Source: Natronorubrum halophilum
GTDB taxonomy: Archaea; Halobacteriota; Halobacteria; Halobacteriales; Natrialbaceae
Direction of reading: 5' to 3'
DNA length: 64,000 nt
Assembly (NCBI RefSeq): GCF_003670115.1
Contig: NZ_QQTY01000002.1
Location: 434,001 to 498,000, forward strand
Under the pieces are notes generated by a model. The model saw only the letters and a program-made list of their open reading frames with translations. It did not search any database and was not told where the DNA came from. The position numbers and the translations under genes were made by a program. Each line of letters opens with the position of its first letter. The first letter of the stretch is position 1. Shown piece after piece: positions 33,301 to 54,350 of this stretch.

Positions 33301-35103
33301 ATGAATTGTGATACGACCGGTTCGGTTGACGGCGTCGATCGGCGTTCGGTCCTGGCTGCTGGTGCAGCGGGGCTCTCGCTCTCGCTGAGCGGCTGTATCG
33401 ATACTGTTCGAAGCGTCGTCACCGACGACAGCGATGACCAACTGTCACTCTCCATCGTCACGGTCCCCGCGGACAGTAACCGGGAGAGCGTCCGAATCGC
33501 CCGCCACCTTGAGTCGAATCTCGAGGCGGTCGGCGTGGACGTGACCCTCTCGATGCGTTCGGCGACCGATTTCCTGGAGATGATCCTGATCGACCGCGAT
33601 TTCGATCTGTACGTTGGTCGCCATCCCGCTGATTTCGACCCCGACTTCCTCTACGAGGCCCTCCACTCCACGTACGCCGACGAAGCCGGCTGGCAGAATC
33701 CGTTCGGATACTCCAACCCGTACTTCTTCGACCCCCTCCTCGAGGCCCAGCGTCGGGCGGATGGTGATGAACGGCTCGAGAAACTCGAACCAGTCCTGAA
33801 CGGGCTCGCAGAGGAGAAGCCGTTCGACCCGATCTGTCGGCCGACGGAGTATCGGCTCGCCGGAGATCGCTTCGACGGCTGGGACGATGACCACCTCGCC
33901 ACGCGGCGTGGCTATCTCGGTCTCGAACCGGACGACGACGTCGATCGGCTGAACGCGCTTGTAACCGACGCACGACCCTCGCGAAACGTCAACCCGCTCT
34001 CGGCGACGATTCGGGAACGGGGCACGATCGTTAATCTGCTGTACGACTCCCTCGGAACCATCGTCGCCAGCGAGGACGAGGACGGGTTCGAGGTCGAGAA
34101 GTGGCTCGCCGAGTCCTGGGAGTGGGACACGTCGTCGGACGACGAGAAGACGACCGCGACCATCAGACTCCGGGAGGACTGTACGTTCCACGGCGAGGAC
34201 GAGGTGCCGGTCACCGCGGAGGACGTGAAGTTCACCTACCGGTTCCTCGAGGACACCGCGCTCACTCACTCCGATACTCCCTCCCCAGCGCCGCGCTATC
34301 GCGGTCACGCGAGCGCCATCGACAGAATCGAGACCGACGCCGACGACGAACAGTGGCTCCGGATCACCTTCAACGCCGGCGAGGCGGTCAGCAAACGGGC
34401 CTTGACGGCTCCGATCCTGCCGCGACACGTCTGGCTCGAGGAACTCGACGACCGAATCGATAATCGACAGGACTTCTCGGCTCCGCAGGGACGGTGGGGG
34501 CTCGTCGTTACCGACTCGGTGCCCCCCATCGGGAGCGGGCCCTACCAGTTCGGGAGCCAATCCGAACGGAGCCATCTGACCCTCGAGCGCTTCGACGACC
34601 ACTTCACGCTCGACGAGGACGTCGACCTCCCCGGACCGACCGTCGACGAACTCCGATTCACCGTGGATCCGGGCAGTTCGTCCTCGATCGCACAGGTCGA
34701 AAGCGACAACGCCGACCTCACGTCGTCGATGCTCGGTGCCCACTCGCTCGGGGACATCTCCGACGACACCACTGCCGAACTGATCGATGATCCCTCGTGG
34801 ACGTTCTATCACGTCGGGTTCAACACGCGCACCGCACCGTGTAACGATCCTCGCTTCCGGCGCGCGGTAACCCAGTTGATCGACAAGGAGTGGATCGTTC
34901 AGGAGATTTTCTTCGAGGACCACGCGACACCGCTTTCGACCCCGGTGGCTGACGAGTGGGTCCCCGACTCCCTCGAGTGGGACGGCGCAGATCCCGTCAC
35001 ACCGTTTGTCGGGACCGAAGGAACGCTCAACGTCGAAGCTGCACGGGCGGCGTTCGAAGCGGAGAACTTCCGATACGATGATAACGGTCGGCTCTTGAAG
35101 TAG
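33301..35103 (+). CDS. Tat lipoprotein, circularly permuted SBP_bac_5 binding protein, copy 1
   Basis: 600 aa. A twin-Arg signal (RR at 14-15) ends in the lipobox LSGC (Cys 32), so it should be exported folded and lipid-anchored. Residues about 48-205 (LSIVTVPADSNRESVRIAR, DFDPDFLYEALHSTYADEAG, SNPYFFDPLLEAQRRADG) match what is normally the C-terminal part of DppA/OppA-type proteins. Residues about 216-600 (SRNVNPLS, VNLLYDSL, WLAESWEW, LREDCTFHGED, TAEDVKFTYRF, PIGSGPYQFGS, FRRAVTQLIDKEWIVQ) are the normally N-terminal part, and the protein ends at FRYDDNGRLL, exactly where the first segment would follow. No permease or ATPase gene is nearby. A PAP2-type gene follows after 5 nt. Confidence 0.88.
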   Translation: MNCDTTGSVDGVDRRSVLAAGAAGLSLSLSGCIDTVRSVVTDDSDDQLSLSIVTVPADSNRESVRIARHLESNLEAVGVDVTLSMRSATDFLEMILIDRDFDLYVGRHPADFDPDFLYEALHSTYADEAGWQNPFGYSNPYFFDPLLEAQRRADGDERLEKLEPVLNGLAEEKPFDPICRPTEYRLAGDRFDGWDDDHLATRRGYLGLEPDDDVDRLNALVTDARPSRNVNPLSATIRERGTIVNLLYDSLGTIVASEDEDGFEVEKWLAESWEWDTSSDDEKTTATIRLREDCTFHGEDEVPVTAEDVKFTYRFLEDTALTHSDTPSPAPRYRGHASAIDRIETDADDEQWLRITFNAGEAVSKRALTAPILPRHVWLEELDDRIDNRQDFSAPQGRWGLVVTDSVPPIGSGPYQFGSQSERSHLTLERFDDHFTLDEDVDLPGPTVDELRFTVDPGSSSSIAQVESDNADLTSSMLGAHSLGDISDDTTAELIDDPSWTFYHVGFNTRTAPCNDPRFRRAVTQLIDKEWIVQEIFFEDHATPLSTPVADEWVPDSLEWDGADPVTPFVGTEGTLNVEAARAAFEAENFRYDDNGRLLK

Positions 35104-35108
35104 TACTG

Positions 35109-35936
35109 ATGCTGACTGAGGTACTGACTAACCTCGTAATCGTCGTCGCGGTCTTGCTGTTGCTCTCGATTGCGCTGTTCGTCGGCCGGGAGCGACTCGA
35201 AACAACGCGAACCGAGTGGCGCGCTCGGGTTCGGACCTCCGGTCCGACCATTCTCGTCTTGCTAGTCGTGCTGGTGTTCAACCGCATCATGCGGTGGGAG
35301 CAGCCGGAGCTCAGCCTCACGACCCACATGACCTCGACGATCCGCAGTATCGAGGGGGACTTCGTCCTCATCTTTCAGGAGATCGCGACGCCGGAGCTTA
35401 CGGAATACTTCTCGTTCATCTACGTTTACGGCTACACGTTTTTGCTGATCTTCCCGGCCATCGCGTACTTCGCCCTCTCGGACACCAAGGCGTTCCGACG
35501 GCTGATGACGGCCTACGCGCTCAACTACGCGCTCGGCGTCGTCCTGTACATGCTCGTGATCGCGTACGGCCCGCGAAACGTGTTCGCCGGCGAACTGGCC
35601 ACCGTCCTCTACGACCACAGTCCGGAGTACCAGTACGTCACTCGCGAAGTCAACCAGAACACCAACGTCTTCCCGTCGCTCCACACGTCGCTTTCGGCGA
35701 CGGTCGGCGTCTTCGCGTTCATCACCCGCTCGAGCTATCCGAAGTGGTTCCCCGTCGCCCTCGTGCTCTCTACCAGCGTCATCATCTCGACGATGTATCT
35801 GGCGATTCACTGGGCGGTCGACGTCGTCGCTGGGCTCGCTCTCGCGGCCTTCTGCGTCTACGTCTCCTACCAGTTGGTCGGCCGCTGGTCGCTGTCGGAC
35901 CTGTACGACCGGGTGACCGGAACCGACCGACGCTAA
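35109..35936 (+). CDS. PAP2/Aur1-type membrane phosphatase or head-group transferase, copy 1
   Basis: 275 aa, about six membrane helices. Active-site blocks are FPSLHTSLSATVG (about residues 187-199; PSLH in place of PSGH, as in inositol-phosphorylceramide-synthase-like PAP2_3 proteins) and TMYLAIHWAVDVVAG, with the second His (about 234) and the Asp four residues later. The first Lys/Arg motif of classic PAP2 is not obvious; a GPRN segment precedes. Such enzymes remove or transfer phosphate-linked head groups from lipids or polyprenyl phosphates on the outer face. The 5-nt gap to the permuted binding protein shows cotranscription. Confidence 0.85.
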   Translation: MLTEVLTNLVIVVAVLLLLSIALFVGRERLETTRTEWRARVRTSGPTILVLLVVLVFNRIMRWEQPELSLTTHMTSTIRSIEGDFVLIFQEIATPELTEYFSFIYVYGYTFLLIFPAIAYFALSDTKAFRRLMTAYALNYALGVVLYMLVIAYGPRNVFAGELATVLYDHSPEYQYVTREVNQNTNVFPSLHTSLSATVGVFAFITRSSYPKWFPVALVLSTSVIISTMYLAIHWAVDVVAGLALAAFCVYVSYQLVGRWSLSDLYDRVTGTDRR

Positions 35937-36030
35937 CCCGCAACCGGGACGGGCTCGCGACTCGACGCCTCGCGGACCGGCAGCGTAATACTGTTATACC
36001 GCCGTCAGTGAACTGTGACAAACGATCGGA

Positions 36031-37830
36031 ATGAGTGATGAACGGGGTACGGCTGGCGGAACCAGTGTCGGAGATAGCGCTGACAGCGACGCTACGGGCG
36101 GAATCAGCCGTCGGGCTGCGCTGGCCGGAGCCGTCGGGCTGACGGCCTCGACCAGCGGTTGCGTCCGCCAGCTTCGGAGCATCGTCAACCGGGACGATAT
36201 CGAACAGCTCTCCCTGACGATCACGACCCTCCCCGCGGACGGTGACCGGGAGAGCATTCGGCTCGCTCGAGAGATCGCCGCGGTGCTCGAGGCCGTCGGC
36301 GTCGACACCTCGATCGAGATGCGGTCCAACGAGGAGTTTCTGCGGGCCGTCCTGATCAATCACGACTTCGACGTCTACGTCGGCCAGCATCCCGGCGGGA
36401 CCGACCCGGACTTTCTGTACGAGGCGTTGCACTCGCTGTACGCCGACGAATCCGGCTGGCAGAATCCCTTCGGCTTTACGAACCTGCTGGTCGACGACTT
36501 ACTCGAGACCCAGCGAGAGGCCGACGACGAGTCCCGTCGCGACGCCGTCGCGACGATGCTCGAGGCGGTGGCCATCGAACAGCCGTTCGTTCCCATCTGC
36601 AGCCCGATCGAGCACCGACTCGCCAGGACCGACCGATTCGACAACTGGTCGGAGGGCGATCTCACCACGCGACACGGCTACCTCGGACTCGAACCGCAAA
36701 CGGAGGAGAGTAGCGACCTGCTTCGGGCCGTCAACTTAGATTCTCGCCCGTCACAGAACCTCAACCCGCTGAACGCCGAGTACCGCGACCGGGGGACGTT
36801 CGTCGATCTGCTGTACGACTCGCTCGCGACTATCGACGGCGACCGATCGCTCGAGCCGTGGCTCGCTGAGGAGTGGGAGTGGACGGATGAATCGACGCTC
36901 ACCGTCGATCTCAGAGCCGACTGCGCGTTCCACGACGGTGAGCCCCTCACCGCCGACGACGTCGCCTTCACTTATCGCTTCATCGCCGACACCATGCGTG
37001 GCGACGGCCCGTCTCCAGCCCCGGCACCGCGCTATCGCGGCCGCGTCGACGCGATCGACGAGGTCACGGTACGCGACGAGTACCGCCTCGAATTTGCGCT
37101 CGAGACGGCCCGAACGGTCGGCGAACACGCGCTGACGGTTCCGGTCCTTCCCGAGCATATCTGGGCGGACCGCGCGGAGACGGCCGCCGTTCCGGGGGTT
37201 CGCGTCGCCCAGGGAACCACCGACGCGGTCGTGACGGACAACATCCCGCCGGTCGGCAGCGGTCCGTTTCAGTACGGCAGTCACACCGAGCGCGAACACG
37301 TCACCTTCGAGCGCTTCGACGACCACTTCACGCGTCGCGGAGGCGTCGACCTGTCCGAAGCGACGGTCGAAGAGCTTCGGGTTCAGATCGATCCGCGGAG
37401 CACGTCGGCGATTCAACTGATCGAGGACGGCAGCGCGGACGTCACGAGTTCGCGCCTCGAGAACTACGTCATCAACGACGTCGAGGAGACGGACGCCGTT
37501 CAGTTGCTCGAGTCGCCGTCGTGGACGTTCTATCACCTCGGGTTCAACGCGCGCAAGGCACCCTTCGGGAACCCGCGACTTCGGCAGGTCATCGCCCGGC
37601 TGATCGACAAGGCGTGGCTGGTCGAGGACGTGTTCCACGGCCGTGCGACGCCGATTGCGACGCCGGTGACGGGCGAGTGGGTTCCCGACTCCCTCAAGTG
37701 GGACGGCGAGGATCCGGAGATGCCCTTCCTCGGTTCGGACGGCGAGGTCGACGTGGACGCGGCACGGACGGCGTTCGAGGAGGCCGGCTTCCGATACGAC
37801 GGCGACGGCAACCTCCGGGTGAGACAGTAA
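36031..37830 (+). CDS. Tat lipoprotein, circularly permuted SBP_bac_5 binding protein, copy 2
   Basis: 599 aa, a diverged paralogue of the protein at 33301. The twin-Arg signal (RR at 27-28) ends at SGC (Cys 44), with Thr rather than Leu at -3 of the lipobox. The order is the same: LSLTITTLPADGDRESIRLAR to FDNWS (about 60-212) is the normally C-terminal segment. Then SQNLNPLNA, FVDLLYDSL, WLAEEWEW, DCAFHDGEPLTADDVAFTYRF, PVGSGPFQYGS and RLRQVIARLIDKAWLVEDVF (about 230-575) form the normally N-terminal one, ending FRYDGDGNLRV. A TTATAC box lies about 34 bp upstream. The stop codon overlaps the next ATG by one base. Confidence 0.88.
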   Translation: MSDERGTAGGTSVGDSADSDATGGISRRAALAGAVGLTASTSGCVRQLRSIVNRDDIEQLSLTITTLPADGDRESIRLAREIAAVLEAVGVDTSIEMRSNEEFLRAVLINHDFDVYVGQHPGGTDPDFLYEALHSLYADESGWQNPFGFTNLLVDDLLETQREADDESRRDAVATMLEAVAIEQPFVPICSPIEHRLARTDRFDNWSEGDLTTRHGYLGLEPQTEESSDLLRAVNLDSRPSQNLNPLNAEYRDRGTFVDLLYDSLATIDGDRSLEPWLAEEWEWTDESTLTVDLRADCAFHDGEPLTADDVAFTYRFIADTMRGDGPSPAPAPRYRGRVDAIDEVTVRDEYRLEFALETARTVGEHALTVPVLPEHIWADRAETAAVPGVRVAQGTTDAVVTDNIPPVGSGPFQYGSHTEREHVTFERFDDHFTRRGGVDLSEATVEELRVQIDPRSTSAIQLIEDGSADVTSSRLENYVINDVEETDAVQLLESPSWTFYHLGFNARKAPFGNPRLRQVIARLIDKAWLVEDVFHGRATPIATPVTGEWVPDSLKWDGEDPEMPFLGSDGEVDVDAARTAFEEAGFRYDGDGNLRVRQ

Positions 37831-38675
37831 TGCTGGGCAGAGTGCTGGTACAGTTGGCCGTGGTCGTGACGCTCATGGTCCTCCTCTCGACCGCGGTCTT
37901 CGTCGGCCGATACCGGCTCCGAGAGACGCGGGTCGAGTGGCGAGACAGGATTCGCGCTGCCGCCCCGATCACGGTCGTGCTCGCCATCGTCTTGCTGTTC
38001 AACAGCGTCGCCAGGCAGGTCGTGCCGGATCTCTCGTGGATGATCGACTGGAACCTGACGTGGGCGATCTACGACATCGAGGGCCAGTTCATCGTCTGGC
38101 TCCAATCGTACTCGACGCCGGCGGTGACGGCGTACTTCTCGTTTAGCTACATTTACAGCTACGTCTTCTTGCTCGTCTTCCCCGTCGTCGCCTACTTCGC
38201 GCTCTCGAACACGCGGCCACTCCGCGAGTTGCTGACGGCGTACACGCTGAACTACACGCTCGGATTGGCGTTGTACGTCTTCGTCATCGCCTACGGCCCG
38301 CGAAACATCATGCCCGAACTCGTCCAGGCGTTGTTGTACGATACGTACCCGGAGTACCAACACCTCACGCGACAGGTCAACCGCAATACCAACGTCTTCC
38401 CGTCGTTACACACCTCGCTCGCGGCCACCGTTTCGTTCCTGGCCTATCGGACGCGGGAGATCTATCCGAAGTGGAACCTCGTCGCGGCCGCCCTCGGCGT
38501 CTCCGTCGCGATTTCGACCATGTATCTCGGTATTCACTGGGCGATCGACGTCGTCGCCGGCATCGTCCTCGCGTACATCAGCGTCGAACTCGCCCACCTA
38601 CTGGTCGGACGCTGGTCGCTCTCGACGTGGATCGACGGTCGCGTGCCGTCGCTCGAAACCATCCGAAACCGGTAA
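37830..38675 (+). CDS. PAP2/Aur1-type membrane phosphatase or head-group transferase, copy 2
   Basis: 281 aa, paralogue of the protein at 35109, similar across its whole length. PSLHTSLAATVSF (about residues 190-202) and TMYLGIHWAIDVVAG, with His about 236 and Asp about 240, preserve the catalytic set. The N-terminal helix, ETRVEWRDRIRAAAP loop and EYFSF-like AYFSFSYIYSYVFLLVFP helix are conserved with copy 1. The start overlaps the stop of the preceding gene (TAATG), so the two are translationally coupled, more tightly than in copy 1. Substrate unknown. Confidence 0.85.
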   Translation: MLGRVLVQLAVVVTLMVLLSTAVFVGRYRLRETRVEWRDRIRAAAPITVVLAIVLLFNSVARQVVPDLSWMIDWNLTWAIYDIEGQFIVWLQSYSTPAVTAYFSFSYIYSYVFLLVFPVVAYFALSNTRPLRELLTAYTLNYTLGLALYVFVIAYGPRNIMPELVQALLYDTYPEYQHLTRQVNRNTNVFPSLHTSLAATVSFLAYRTREIYPKWNLVAAALGVSVAISTMYLGIHWAIDVVAGIVLAYISVELAHLLVGRWSLSTWIDGRVPSLETIRNR

Positions 38676-41161: not shown

Positions 41162-43339
41162 ATGACAGAGAGCCACTCGAACGGACGAGGCGAACCGGAT
41201 GACGACCGACGGGCGTTTCTTCAGACCATCGGACTGGCCGCAACGTCGACCGGCCTGGTCGGAACCGCAGTCGGTGAAACGAGCGCGGACGAACCGAACT
41301 CGAATCGGGGCGACGGCCTCGTGTCGCTGACCCACGGCGTGGCTGCGGGCGACGTCACCGCTACCACGGCGGTCGTGTGGGCGCGCGCGGTCAACGACGC
41401 GACGATTCACGTCGCGTACAGCCGCGATCGGTCGTTTAGCGGCGTCAACTACGACCGGACGACGGTCGACGACGAGACGGATTACACCGGACAGCTCCGA
41501 CTGTCGGGGCTCGAGCCCGGAACTCGCTACCACTATCACGTCTGGGCGACGGGGGCAGAGACGTCGTACCGACCGCTGTCCGAACGAAACGACGCCGACG
41601 GCGCTCGAGGCCGGAGCCGAAACGCCACGGCGGCAGACCGGAACGAGTCGACCCGGAACGACGGCGGGCCGCAGAACGGGTCGGAAGGCGGCGGCCGAGG
41701 CGACGGACCAACCGACGGGGCGGTCCCCGATGCGGTCGAAAGCGGGACGTTTCTCACGGCACCGGCACCGGACGACGAAGCGGGCGTCAGCTTCGCCTGG
41801 AGCGGCGACACGTGGGGCTACGGTGACGATCCCGTCGAACCGCCGTTCCCGGGCCTGCTGACGATCGCGGAGCGAGAACCGGACTTCTTCCTCTATCACG
41901 GGGACACGATCTACGCCGACGCGCAGACGCCGGCCGGGAAGATCACCGAGGACACGCCGATCGACGACGCCCTCGAGATCTACCGGGAGAAGTACAAGGA
42001 GATGCGCGACCCGCCGGCGGAGATCGCCGAGCGAACGAACCTGCGGGAACTCCTCGAGACGACGTCGGTCTACACCGTCTGGGACGACCACGAAGTCATC
42101 AACAACTTCGCGGGACCGATCGAGCCGCTGATGCCCGAGGGGCGGCGGGCCTTTCGCGAGTACTGGCCGCTCGACCGGGACGACGGGGCCGATCCCGGCG
42201 AATCCAACCGGTTCTACGACTCCTTCCGGTGGGGGAAACACGTCGAGTTGTTCGTCATCGACACCCGCCAGTACCGCGACCCGAACGTCGACCTCGACTC
42301 GAAAACGCTGCTCGGCGAGGCCCAACTCGAGTGGCTGAAGGGAGCGCTCGCCGACTCCGATGCGACGTGGAAGCTCCTCGCCTCGCCGGCCCCGCTGGGG
42401 TATCCGTCGGACTCGTGGGCGACGCCGACCGATCGAACCGGCTACGAGGCGGAACTCCTCGAGGTGATCGAACACGTGCAGACGGAGCCCGTCTCGAATC
42501 TGGTCGTCGTCGCGGGAGACGTCCACAAGTCGGTCGTAGGCGCGTTCGACCCCGACGACGACGGCGAGTTCGAGTTCTTCGAGGCTATCGCCGGACCCCT
42601 GGGTGCGCCGGCGGGCGAACCCGACGACCTCTATCCCGCGTTGAATCCGACGGAGTTCTTCGCGAAAGGCGAATACGCCAACTTCGGCACCGTGGAGGTC
42701 GACGAATCGGGCGAAACGCTGACGATCGGTATCTACGACGAGTACGGAACCGAAGCGTTCAGGAAGACGATCCACACGGACGATATCGACGCCGGCACCG
42801 AGCCGGTCACCCGCGTCGAGAGCACGTTCGACGAGGACGCCGACGGCTGGCTCGTCTCGCAAAACGGCGGGAGCAACCGCCCCGTCTACCGAGAGCGCGA
42901 CGGCAATCCCGGCGGCCACATCAGCGACGAGGAGAATCAGGGCGGCGTCGCCTGGTACTATCAGGCACCGTTCAAATTCCTCGGCGACCGCGAGGCGTTC
43001 TACGGCGGGTCGCTCTCGTTCGACCTTCGCCAGGCCCGGACCGATCAGCAGTTCGACGCCGAACCGGTCGAGGGCGGCGACATCCTGCTCGCGAGCGGGG
43101 ACAAGAGGCTCGTCTACGAGTTCCGCGGCCCCGACAGCAATCCGGGGGTGGAGTGGACGTCCTTCGAAGCGCCGCTGACGGCCGACGCGACGTGGATCGA
43201 TCTCACGAGTCGGGAGCCGTTCGCGACCGAAGCGCGGTTCCGCGCCGTCCTCGCCGATTTGGAAGTGCTCCGAATCCGCGGCGAGTACCGGTCCGGCGAC
43301 GATACGAGCTACCTCGACAACGTCGTCCTCTCGAGGTAG
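41162..43339 (+). CDS. PhoD-type alkaline phosphatase/phosphodiesterase, Tat-exported
   Basis: 725-aa secreted metallophosphatase. The Tat signal has RR at 16-17 followed by AFLQTIGLAATSTGLVGTAVG. A fibronectin-like N-terminal domain (about 45-140) has an acidic, Ser/Gly-rich insert (about 141-190) that lacks structure. Metal-ligand blocks are FAWSGDTWGYGDDP (about 214), DFFLYHGDTIYAD (about 240), VWDDHEVINNF (about 308) and VVVAGDVHKS (about 450), with a C-terminal 200-residue beta domain. Such enzymes release phosphate from esters outside the cell. A single gene with a strong AT-rich promoter. Confidence 0.9.
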   Translation: MTESHSNGRGEPDDDRRAFLQTIGLAATSTGLVGTAVGETSADEPNSNRGDGLVSLTHGVAAGDVTATTAVVWARAVNDATIHVAYSRDRSFSGVNYDRTTVDDETDYTGQLRLSGLEPGTRYHYHVWATGAETSYRPLSERNDADGARGRSRNATAADRNESTRNDGGPQNGSEGGGRGDGPTDGAVPDAVESGTFLTAPAPDDEAGVSFAWSGDTWGYGDDPVEPPFPGLLTIAEREPDFFLYHGDTIYADAQTPAGKITEDTPIDDALEIYREKYKEMRDPPAEIAERTNLRELLETTSVYTVWDDHEVINNFAGPIEPLMPEGRRAFREYWPLDRDDGADPGESNRFYDSFRWGKHVELFVIDTRQYRDPNVDLDSKTLLGEAQLEWLKGALADSDATWKLLASPAPLGYPSDSWATPTDRTGYEAELLEVIEHVQTEPVSNLVVVAGDVHKSVVGAFDPDDDGEFEFFEAIAGPLGAPAGEPDDLYPALNPTEFFAKGEYANFGTVEVDESGETLTIGIYDEYGTEAFRKTIHTDDIDAGTEPVTRVESTFDEDADGWLVSQNGGSNRPVYRERDGNPGGHISDEENQGGVAWYYQAPFKFLGDREAFYGGSLSFDLRQARTDQQFDAEPVEGGDILLASGDKRLVYEFRGPDSNPGVEWTSFEAPLTADATWIDLTSREPFATEARFRAVLADLEVLRIRGEYRSGDDTSYLDNVVLSR

Positions 43340-53080: not shown

Positions 53081-54235
53081 TCAGTCCGCGGCACCAGTCG
53101 CCGTTTCGTCGCGCTGGTCAGCGGGGAACCACGCGAGTTCGTGGTCGGCGGTGATGCGAACGATGACGCGTTCGTCCGGATCGAACCGGTCGGCGTGGTT
53201 GTGCATACACTCGACGGTATCGCCGGAGTCGAGTTCGACGCGATAGAGGACGCTCGGACCGAGATACCGGCGGGAGACGACGCGGCCGTCGGCTTCGGAT
53301 CCCGCAGCCGGGACGGCCGTCACGTCGTCGGGCCGGACGAGCAGGTCGATGGCGGTCCCGTCGGACTGGTGGGCGAGGCCGTCGACGTCGTCGCGGAGCA
53401 CGCGTCCGAGAGCGGTGTCGACGCCGGCACCGCGGACCGCTCCCGAAAGGAAGCTGGCTCGGCCGAGAAAGTCAGCGATGAAGCGCGATTCGGGCCGTTG
53501 AAAGACCCGCTGTGGGCGATCGATCTGCTCGATGTCGCCCTCGTTCATCACCGCGATCCGATCGGAGATCGACAGCGCCTCCTCCTGGTCGTGGGTCACC
53601 GAAACCGCAGTGACGCCGGCTTCCGTAATGATTCGACGCACCTCCTCGCGCATCTCGACGCGGAGATCCACGTCCAGGTTCGAGAAGGGTTCATCGAGCA
53701 ACAGTATCTCGGGTTCGGGAGCGAGCGCCCGCGCGAGGGCGATCCGCTGTTGCTGGCCGCCGGAGAGTTCGTCCGGATAGTCCGCCCCGCGGCCCTCGAG
53801 ACGAACGAGTTCGAGCAGTTCGTCAACGCGGGCCTCGCGTTCGTCCGCGCCTCGTTTCCGAAGGGCGAAGCCGACGTTCTCGCGGGCGGTCAGGTGGGGA
53901 AAGAGGGCGAACTCCTGAAAGACGACGCCGACGCCGCGCTCTTCCGGTGGAACGAAGCGTCCGTTCCCCGCAACGTCGTCGCCCCGAAGTCGGATCTCCC
54001 CGGCGTTCGGTCGCTCGAGGCCGGCGATGAGCCGGAGCGTCGTCGTTTTGCCACAGCCCGATGGCCCGAGCACGGTGAGAATTTCGCCGTCGCGAACGGA
54101 CAGGGAGAGGTCGGGGACGACCGCTTCGCTGCCGTAGCGTTTCGCGACGCCCTCGAGTTCGAGTATCTCGTCGCCCGCGGCGGGTTCCGGCGGTGATCGC
54201 GCAGTTGCCGTCGTAAACGGGTGTTCGTTCGCCAT
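53081..54235 (-). CDS. ABC transporter ATP-binding protein (FbpC/PotA-like), orphan
   Basis: 384-aa ATPase. Walker A GPSGCGKTTT (about residues 51-60), the Q-loop VFQEFALFPHL, the signature LSGGQQQRIALARALAPEP and Walker B EILLLDEPFSNLD with the switch His in VTHDQEEA are all intact. The C-terminal 110 residues are a TOBE-type domain as in Fe3+, sulfate, polyamine and sugar importers; the LARRGAD variable region does not decide the substrate. Alternative start 54292 would add 19 residues. No permease or binding-protein gene lies next to it, so the transporter partners are elsewhere. Confidence 0.9.
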   Translation of the reverse strand: MANEHPFTTATARSPPEPAAGDEILELEGVAKRYGSEAVVPDLSLSVRDGEILTVLGPSGCGKTTTLRLIAGLERPNAGEIRLRGDDVAGNGRFVPPEERGVGVVFQEFALFPHLTARENVGFALRKRGADEREARVDELLELVRLEGRGADYPDELSGGQQQRIALARALAPEPEILLLDEPFSNLDVDLRVEMREEVRRIITEAGVTAVSVTHDQEEALSISDRIAVMNEGDIEQIDRPQRVFQRPESRFIADFLGRASFLSGAVRGAGVDTALGRVLRDDVDGLAHQSDGTAIDLLVRPDDVTAVPAAGSEADGRVVSRRYLGPSVLYRVELDSGDTVECMHNHADRFDPDERVIVRITADHELAWFPADQRDETATGAAD

Positions 54236-54350
54236 ATATGACTCCGGCGTCTGCCGGCGTTCGGTCGGTTCAGGCCGGTGTAATCCACTCATAGCCGCCG
54301 TTCAGCATCACTGGCGTGTGAGCGCCGAAAGTCAGACCGAACGCGACGAG

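Follow-up and report, generated by a model that had tools for sequence, protein, structure and literature searches.

What does a substrate-binding protein (SBP) serve when the gene behind it encodes a PAP2-type membrane enzyme? This question is raised by a locus in the 64,000-nucleotide stretch of DNA analyzed here, hereafter the window. Two head-to-tail SBP-PAP2 units are arranged in tandem at positions 33301-38675, with all four genes on the plus strand, and the host is a haloarchaeal genome (G000) of 4.67 Mb that has Natronorubrum bangense among its nearest relatives. The genes are as follows.

33301-35103, + strand: SBP1, 600 aa, Tat lipoprotein with a circularly permuted SBP_bac_5 fold, in which the C-lobe segment comes first (residues ~45-205) and residues ~220-600 come second
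35109-35936, + strand: PAP2-1, 275 aa, PAP2_3 membrane enzyme carrying the motifs PSLH and HWxxD
36031-37830, + strand: SBP2, 599 aa, Tat lipoprotein permuted like SBP1
37830-38675, + strand: PAP2-2, 281 aa, PAP2_3 membrane enzyme carrying the same two motifs

The tight spacing reported in a preliminary description of this DNA is exact by the window coordinates: 5 nt separate the SBP1 stop from the PAP2-1 ATG, and the TAA of SBP2 shares one base with the PAP2-2 ATG at 37830 (TAATG). The two SBPs are 51% identical to each other and the two enzymes 55%, while a comparison of the two unit leaders did not establish homology between them. When the four genes were compared with those of five related loci, dN values of ~0.09-0.27 and dS values of 0.5-0.93 were obtained, and dN/dS ratios of ~0.2-0.4 indicated purifying selection on all four. 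The host genome also has one PAP2 homolog without an SBP and a third, divergent SBP-PAP2 pair on the same contig (C2:1173645-1176289), which lies elsewhere in the genome and was not seen in the preliminary description. In pairs of this third type (L100 in the host; L101-L104), the gap between SBP and PAP2 is wider (~70-280 nt), and a photolyase-like gene, recognized by eye, lies behind the pair in several Natrialbaceae.

The unusual architecture of the binding proteins was evident in three alignments. PF00496 (SBP_bac_5) matched the two window SBPs with E values of 4e-42 and 1.4e-52, in two stretches each that cover both lobes. Profile positions 1-285 aligned to residues 264-595 and 274-594, respectively, and the second stretch of each protein completed the profile, such that the standard order of the N- and C-terminal segments is swapped. 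The same arrangement was obtained with PDB 5u4o, where SBP2 residues 259-547 match 73-330 and residues 70-203 match 370-502, and with a conventionally ordered SBP from the host genome (SBP2 residues 261-551 match 79-341, and residues 52-171 match 366-477). These data indicated that the permutation, which the preliminary description had proposed to be of one kind in both proteins, is real. A twin-arginine motif and a lipobox cysteine were present in 135 of 135 SBP homologs, and the SBP is thus a surface lipoprotein. In the open-access literature searched, we found no description of a permuted dipeptide-type SBP.

Permuted SBPs are found in transporter operons as well. Distant relatives that are 25-30% identical to SBP2 and collinear with it sit in canonical SBP-DppB-DppC-ATPase operons (L078-L085), and a still more distant relative in the host genome (L089) belongs to a Dpp-type ABC operon. 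The permutation is therefore not specific to the PAP2 partnership, and the permuted fold as a hallmark of that partnership was ruled out. The occurrence of permuted SBPs beside ABC permeases, which had been named in advance as an argument against a fixed partnership, was indeed observed, but in a different subfamily; the prediction that permuted SBPs pair with PAP2 in ABC-free neighborhoods holds for the close homologs and fails for the distant ones. In the simplest history, one clade arose within a family of transporter SBPs and took on PAP2 as its partner in place of the transporter.

No ABC permease or ATPase gene adjoins the pairs in the window. By motif scan, the only ABC-type ATPase there, with Walker A and LSGG motifs, is encoded at 53081-54292 on the minus strand, ~14 kb away. 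Among the surveyed haloarchaeal loci, no ABC importer gene was found beside the pair except a solitary plasmid gene for an ATP-binding protein, and the absence of transporter genes noted for the window was thereby upheld across loci. The SBP is not accompanied by the permease and ATPase that define an ABC importer in the same operon or locus, although it may share a transporter encoded at a distance; as an SBP-fold lipoprotein encoded outside an ABC operon, it falls among the orphan SBPs.

A fixed partnership of SBP and PAP2 across the class Halobacteria is well supported. A census of the class covered 145 good-quality genomes, in which PAP2 was directly downstream of 119 of 138 SBP genes; of the other 19, 15 were the second SBP in SBP-PAP2-SBP clusters of two genera and 4 were unlinked. 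The median gap in this census was 27 nt between alignment ends, with a few large gaps arising from partial alignments. At least one pair was present in 91 of the 93 genomes with PAP2, and neither gene in about one-third of the sampled genomes, so that the product is dispensable. Of 79 named loci spread over many genera, 78 have SBP then PAP2 on the same strand, and in 40 relatives a PAP2 homolog follows almost every close homolog of the SBP. Outside Halobacteria, a phylum sample of 197 genomes gave no match to the unit. The fixed partnership proposed earlier thus stands for the SBP, whereas it does not extend to every enzyme: the 31 unpaired PAP2 genes listed form a second PAP2 subfamily without SBP, and Natrinema has a second SBP without its own PAP2. 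Given these exceptions, the enzyme may be able to carry out its reaction without the SBP.

Members of the orphan PAP2_3 subfamily (L092-L098) occupy conserved places that were recognized by eye, for example following the RNA polymerase/nusA cluster or in the vicinity of genes for malate dehydrogenase and a helicase. Long open frames in two genomes had suggested an SBP-PAP2 fusion, for which inspection gave no support. We found no description of the SBP-PAP2 pair in the open-access literature searched. Database records label the two genes separately, the SBP as "ABC transporter substrate-binding protein" and its partner as "phosphatase PAP2 family protein" or "inositol phosphorylceramide synthase", and these labels hide a fixed partnership present in about two-thirds of the sampled haloarchaea.

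The two genes have diverged in concert. Distance matrices of SBP and PAP2 were correlated with r = 0.91 over 118 pairs, indicative of co-inheritance and cognate pairing, although the correlation alone is no proof of SBP-PAP2 contact, because tight linkage also yields correlated trees. At 23 tandem loci, r was 0.87 for true partners versus 0.19 on average when partners were swapped within loci. Across most Natrialbaceae genera, the first copies group together in both trees, and the second copies make up a separate clade. This co-divergence of cognate partners indicated that both genes of the unit were duplicated together and then retained, in agreement with the preliminary description. In Natrinema the second PAP2 was lost and both SBPs were kept; clusters of the SBP-PAP2-SBP type, in which the second PAP2 is missing, were seen in this genus (L135-L137, L143-L145, L149, and L150) and in Halovivax asiaticus (L180). 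Natronorubrum bangense carries the tandem cluster on its chromosome and on a plasmid (L120 and L121) with identical match values, and these may represent a recent segmental copy.

What kind of enzyme is the partner? PAP2_3 (PF14378) matched the window enzymes with 62.0 and 60.8 bits, against a Pfam gathering cut-off of 27. Both carry the PSLH and HWxxD motifs attributed to them earlier, and PSLH194, H236, W237, D240, and GPR156-158 show no variation among the 118 paired homologs or the eight orphans. The canonical PAP2 phosphatase signature is KX6RP-PSGH-SRX5HX3D. Here, PSLH stands for PSGH, the C3 Arg of the SRx5H motif is Thr230 in all 118 paired homologs, and no KX6RP was seen. In an AlphaFold model of PAP2-2 (pLDDT 89), the nearest solved fold was inositol phosphorylceramide (IPC) synthase (9vj4; Z 18.1 over 214 residues, 3.1 A), the second nearest was Aur1 (9ivc; Z 17.1 over 218 residues, 3.5 A), and LpxE (Z 16.4 over 165 residues, 2.4 A) and other PAP2 phosphatases came next. 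The IPC synthase and Aur1 alignments include the N-terminal helices, starting from model residue 31-38, while that of LpxE starts from residue 74. The predicted fold together with the invariant His/His/Asp residues places the enzyme in the Aur1/IPC synthase type, as had been proposed, but a shared fold does not by itself show activity. Realistically, the partner is either an Aur1-type lipid phosphotransferase or a lipid phosphatase. The charges of the loops and the precedent of other PAP2 enzymes suggest that the active site is extracytoplasmic.

Genes around the unit were inspected for a possible pathway. In several Natrialbaceae, two same-strand GT4 genes flank the unit, GT4b just upstream and GT4a just downstream. 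Both are present in Natronorubrum texcoconense (L123), Natronococcus pandeyae (L126), Natronoglomus (L156), and loci L117, L118, and L160; GT4b occurs alone in L153 and GT4a alone in L158, which makes eight GT4-flanked loci altogether. The best named model was the LTA glycolipid-anchor glycosyltransferase IagA/BgsA for GT4b (E = 4e-81) and GlcN-PG (GlcN-phosphatidylglycerol) synthase for GT4a (E = 5e-41), each below the curated cut-off. In the window, no glycosyltransferase adjoins the unit, GT4b and GT4a being absent there; GT4 paralogs lie together elsewhere in the host genome (C3:370-372 kb), where they adjoin genes for a flippase-like protein and a sulfatase-type enzyme as well as a homolog of the ~420-aa third gene described below.

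In other families, a GT-C (PMT_2) gene is often divergent from the unit, accompanied by an arylsulfotransferase-like gene in five loci. Plasmid loci of Haloferax gibbonsii, Haloarcula, Haladaptatus, Salinigranum, and Halobaculum carry a divergent arylsulfotransferase gene and a gene for a ~540-aa protein, annotated as glycosyltransferase family 39 in Salinigranum and as hypothetical in the other four. No GT4, GT-C, or arylsulfotransferase-like gene was found in the 14 loci of distant permuted SBPs. Glyco-enzyme neighbors are absent from many SBP-PAP2 loci, and the conserved neighbors may reflect regional synteny rather than pathway partners. The GT4 and GT-C/arylsulfotransferase-like contexts point to surface glycolipids or glycans, and the suggested surface lipid or polyprenyl role draws support from these adjacent genes in other genomes and from the GT4 paralogs elsewhere in the host genome.

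In 17 of 31 non-Natrialbaceae loci, the gene immediately preceding that of the SBP encodes a ~420-aa membrane protein. Members of this protein family, found for instance at L171:5719-6972, L182:2319-3629, and L122:11571-12860 and in the host genome at L203:8678-9880 and L204:8536-9909, have a soluble domain with LWPYT...RTLAINVV and WDWFRLRH motifs, followed by C-terminal helices. We had presumed a relationship to LssY_C, for which Pfam gave no support in 19 members, and a model of the protein (pLDDT 71) had no confident Foldseek match in PDB. In the window, a PhoD-type phosphatase whose C-terminal part is a Laminin B domain (PF00052; E = 2e-14) is encoded at 41162-43339 on the plus strand, 2.5 kb downstream of the unit.

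On balance, we lean toward a haloarchaeal cell-surface enzyme module rather than a transporter, in which the PAP2 enzyme acts on a phospho-headgroup and the SBP binds or presents the polar part. A Tat-exported, permuted family-5 SBP lipoprotein would be made together with an Aur1/IPC-synthase-like PAP2_3 enzyme whose catalytic His/His/Asp residues probably face outside. The enzyme may transfer or remove the phospho-headgroup of a glycolipid or of a polyprenyl-phosphate-linked glycan in the outer leaflet. The SBP would bind the polar sugar or headgroup part of the glycolipid or lipid-linked glycan, or else a soluble head group, and would present or gate the bound part for the enzyme. The topology, the physical contact between SBP and enzyme, the substrate, and the reaction are what we infer in this scheme. 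As to its history, a Dpp-type ABC SBP family may have lost its transporter, gained a PAP2 partner, and undergone tandem duplication, the last probably before the split of most Natrialbaceae genera. A more specific form of the proposal, in which the permuted SBP would be an obligate substrate-loading subunit of an Aur1-like phosphotransferase that places a soluble or glycan head group onto archaeal glycolipids outside the cell, so that an import protein would have been turned to lipid head-group transfer, seems doubtful to us. Glycocardiolipin synthase was considered as the specific reaction, but we do not propose it: Haloprofundus was the only named producer among the gene-lacking genomes, and Haloferax gibbonsii has the unit.

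Three other explanations deserve weighing against this module. The PAP2 enzyme could be an outer-face phosphatase of polyprenyl/dolichyl (di)phosphate or of lipid phosphate that recycles the carrier used by neighboring glycosyltransferases, with the SBP as a glycan-binding or regulatory accessory. The enzyme does belong to the PAP2 superfamily with its catalytic residues intact, it gave weak NCBIfam matches to PgpB, undecaprenyl-diphosphatases, and LpxE (the last with Z 16.4 in the structural comparison), and the GT-C neighbors are users of polyprenyl-phosphate sugars. Nevertheless, the closest folds are the transferases IPC synthase and Aur1, the canonical Arg of SRx5H is an invariant Thr, and a recycler with a housekeeping role should occur in every genome, yet about one-third are without it; we regard carrier recycling as possible, with considerable reservation. 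Alternatively, the SBP could be a regulator or sensor lipoprotein resembling LpqW, controlling the activity or localization of PAP2 without binding the enzyme's substrate. Such a role, which we rate as unlikely, is consistent with the view that LpqW (PMC3229680) as well as LpqZ and FecB (PMC12802301) are positive regulators, and with the single PAP2 between two SBPs in Natrinema and Halovivax.

Nutrient scavenging appears more improbable still. Here, PAP2 would dephosphorylate an external organophosphate and the SBP would capture the product for an ABC transporter encoded elsewhere. In its favor, the SBP descends from a family that works with ABC transporters, several SBP_bac_5 proteins are encoded in the genome with one in a Dpp-type operon, SBP_bac_5 relatives bind sugars and sugar phosphodiesters according to PDB names, and the PhoD-type phosphatase lies nearby in the window. 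Against it, the surveyed loci are devoid of ABC importer genes bar the one on a plasmid, the partner enzyme crosses the membrane several times and has an Aur1-type fold, and the neighbors are glycosyltransferases, not uptake genes.

Orphan SBPs serving envelope enzymes are of a known kind; new here are the permuted fold, the Aur1-type partner, and the fixed haloarchaeal pair. If the surface enzyme module is true, the repurposing of SBPs as partners of envelope enzymes would extend from mycobacteria to archaea, the pair would become a candidate for an unassigned extracytoplasmic step in the synthesis of archaeal glycolipids or surface glycans, and its relatives would offer an evolutionary series from ABC-linked to enzyme-linked SBPs.

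Among known systems, Aur1/IPC synthase (PDB 9ivc and 9vj4; PAP2_3) provides the closest fold, with Z 17-18 over ~215 residues, and shares the His/His/Asp catalytic residues. The Aur1 class comprises lipid head-group phosphotransferases, whereas the haloarchaeal activity is putative and the identity in the structural alignment is 14%. Haloarchaea are not known to make ceramides, and Kei1, the partner of Aur1, is no SBP. PgpB, LpxE, and BsPgpB have the PAP2 superfamily fold and catalytic His/Asp in common with the haloarchaeal enzyme but keep the SRx5HxxxD Arg and PSGH, where the latter has Thr and PSLH; they have no SBP partner and, LpxE excepted, are less similar in structure. Family-5 SBPs of Dpp/Opp/Nik-type ABC transporters are homologous to the haloarchaeal SBP over both lobes and share lipoprotein export, but in the haloarchaeal protein the segments are permuted, and a PAP2 gene replaces those of permease and ATPase. 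TpMglB-2 of Treponema pallidum is likewise a circularly permuted, membrane-tethered SBP, a glucose-binding lipoprotein that still binds its ligand; it belongs to another SBP class (MglB type), and an ABC or chemoreceptor role has been proposed for it (PMC4990184).

By analogy, the best-supported reading is that the SBP would work like the mycobacterial orphan SBP lipoproteins LpqZ, FecB, and LpqW. LpqZ and FecB bind the arabinosyltransferases AftA and AftB, respectively, with no transporter involved, and thus resemble the haloarchaeal protein as SBP-fold lipoproteins tied to a membrane enzyme of envelope synthesis (PMC12802301). LpqW is similarly linked to a membrane enzyme that makes envelope glycolipids/glycans and channels intermediates into lipomannan, directing its synthesis (PMC3229680). 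LpqW (2GRV) was absent among the best 60 of 106 PDB sequence matches of the SBP, and LpqZ (ProX-like) and the FecB-like proteins come from other SBP lineages not described as permuted. The mycobacterial partners are glycosyltransferases and form no fixed tandem gene pair, whereas the haloarchaeal partner is a PAP2 enzyme.
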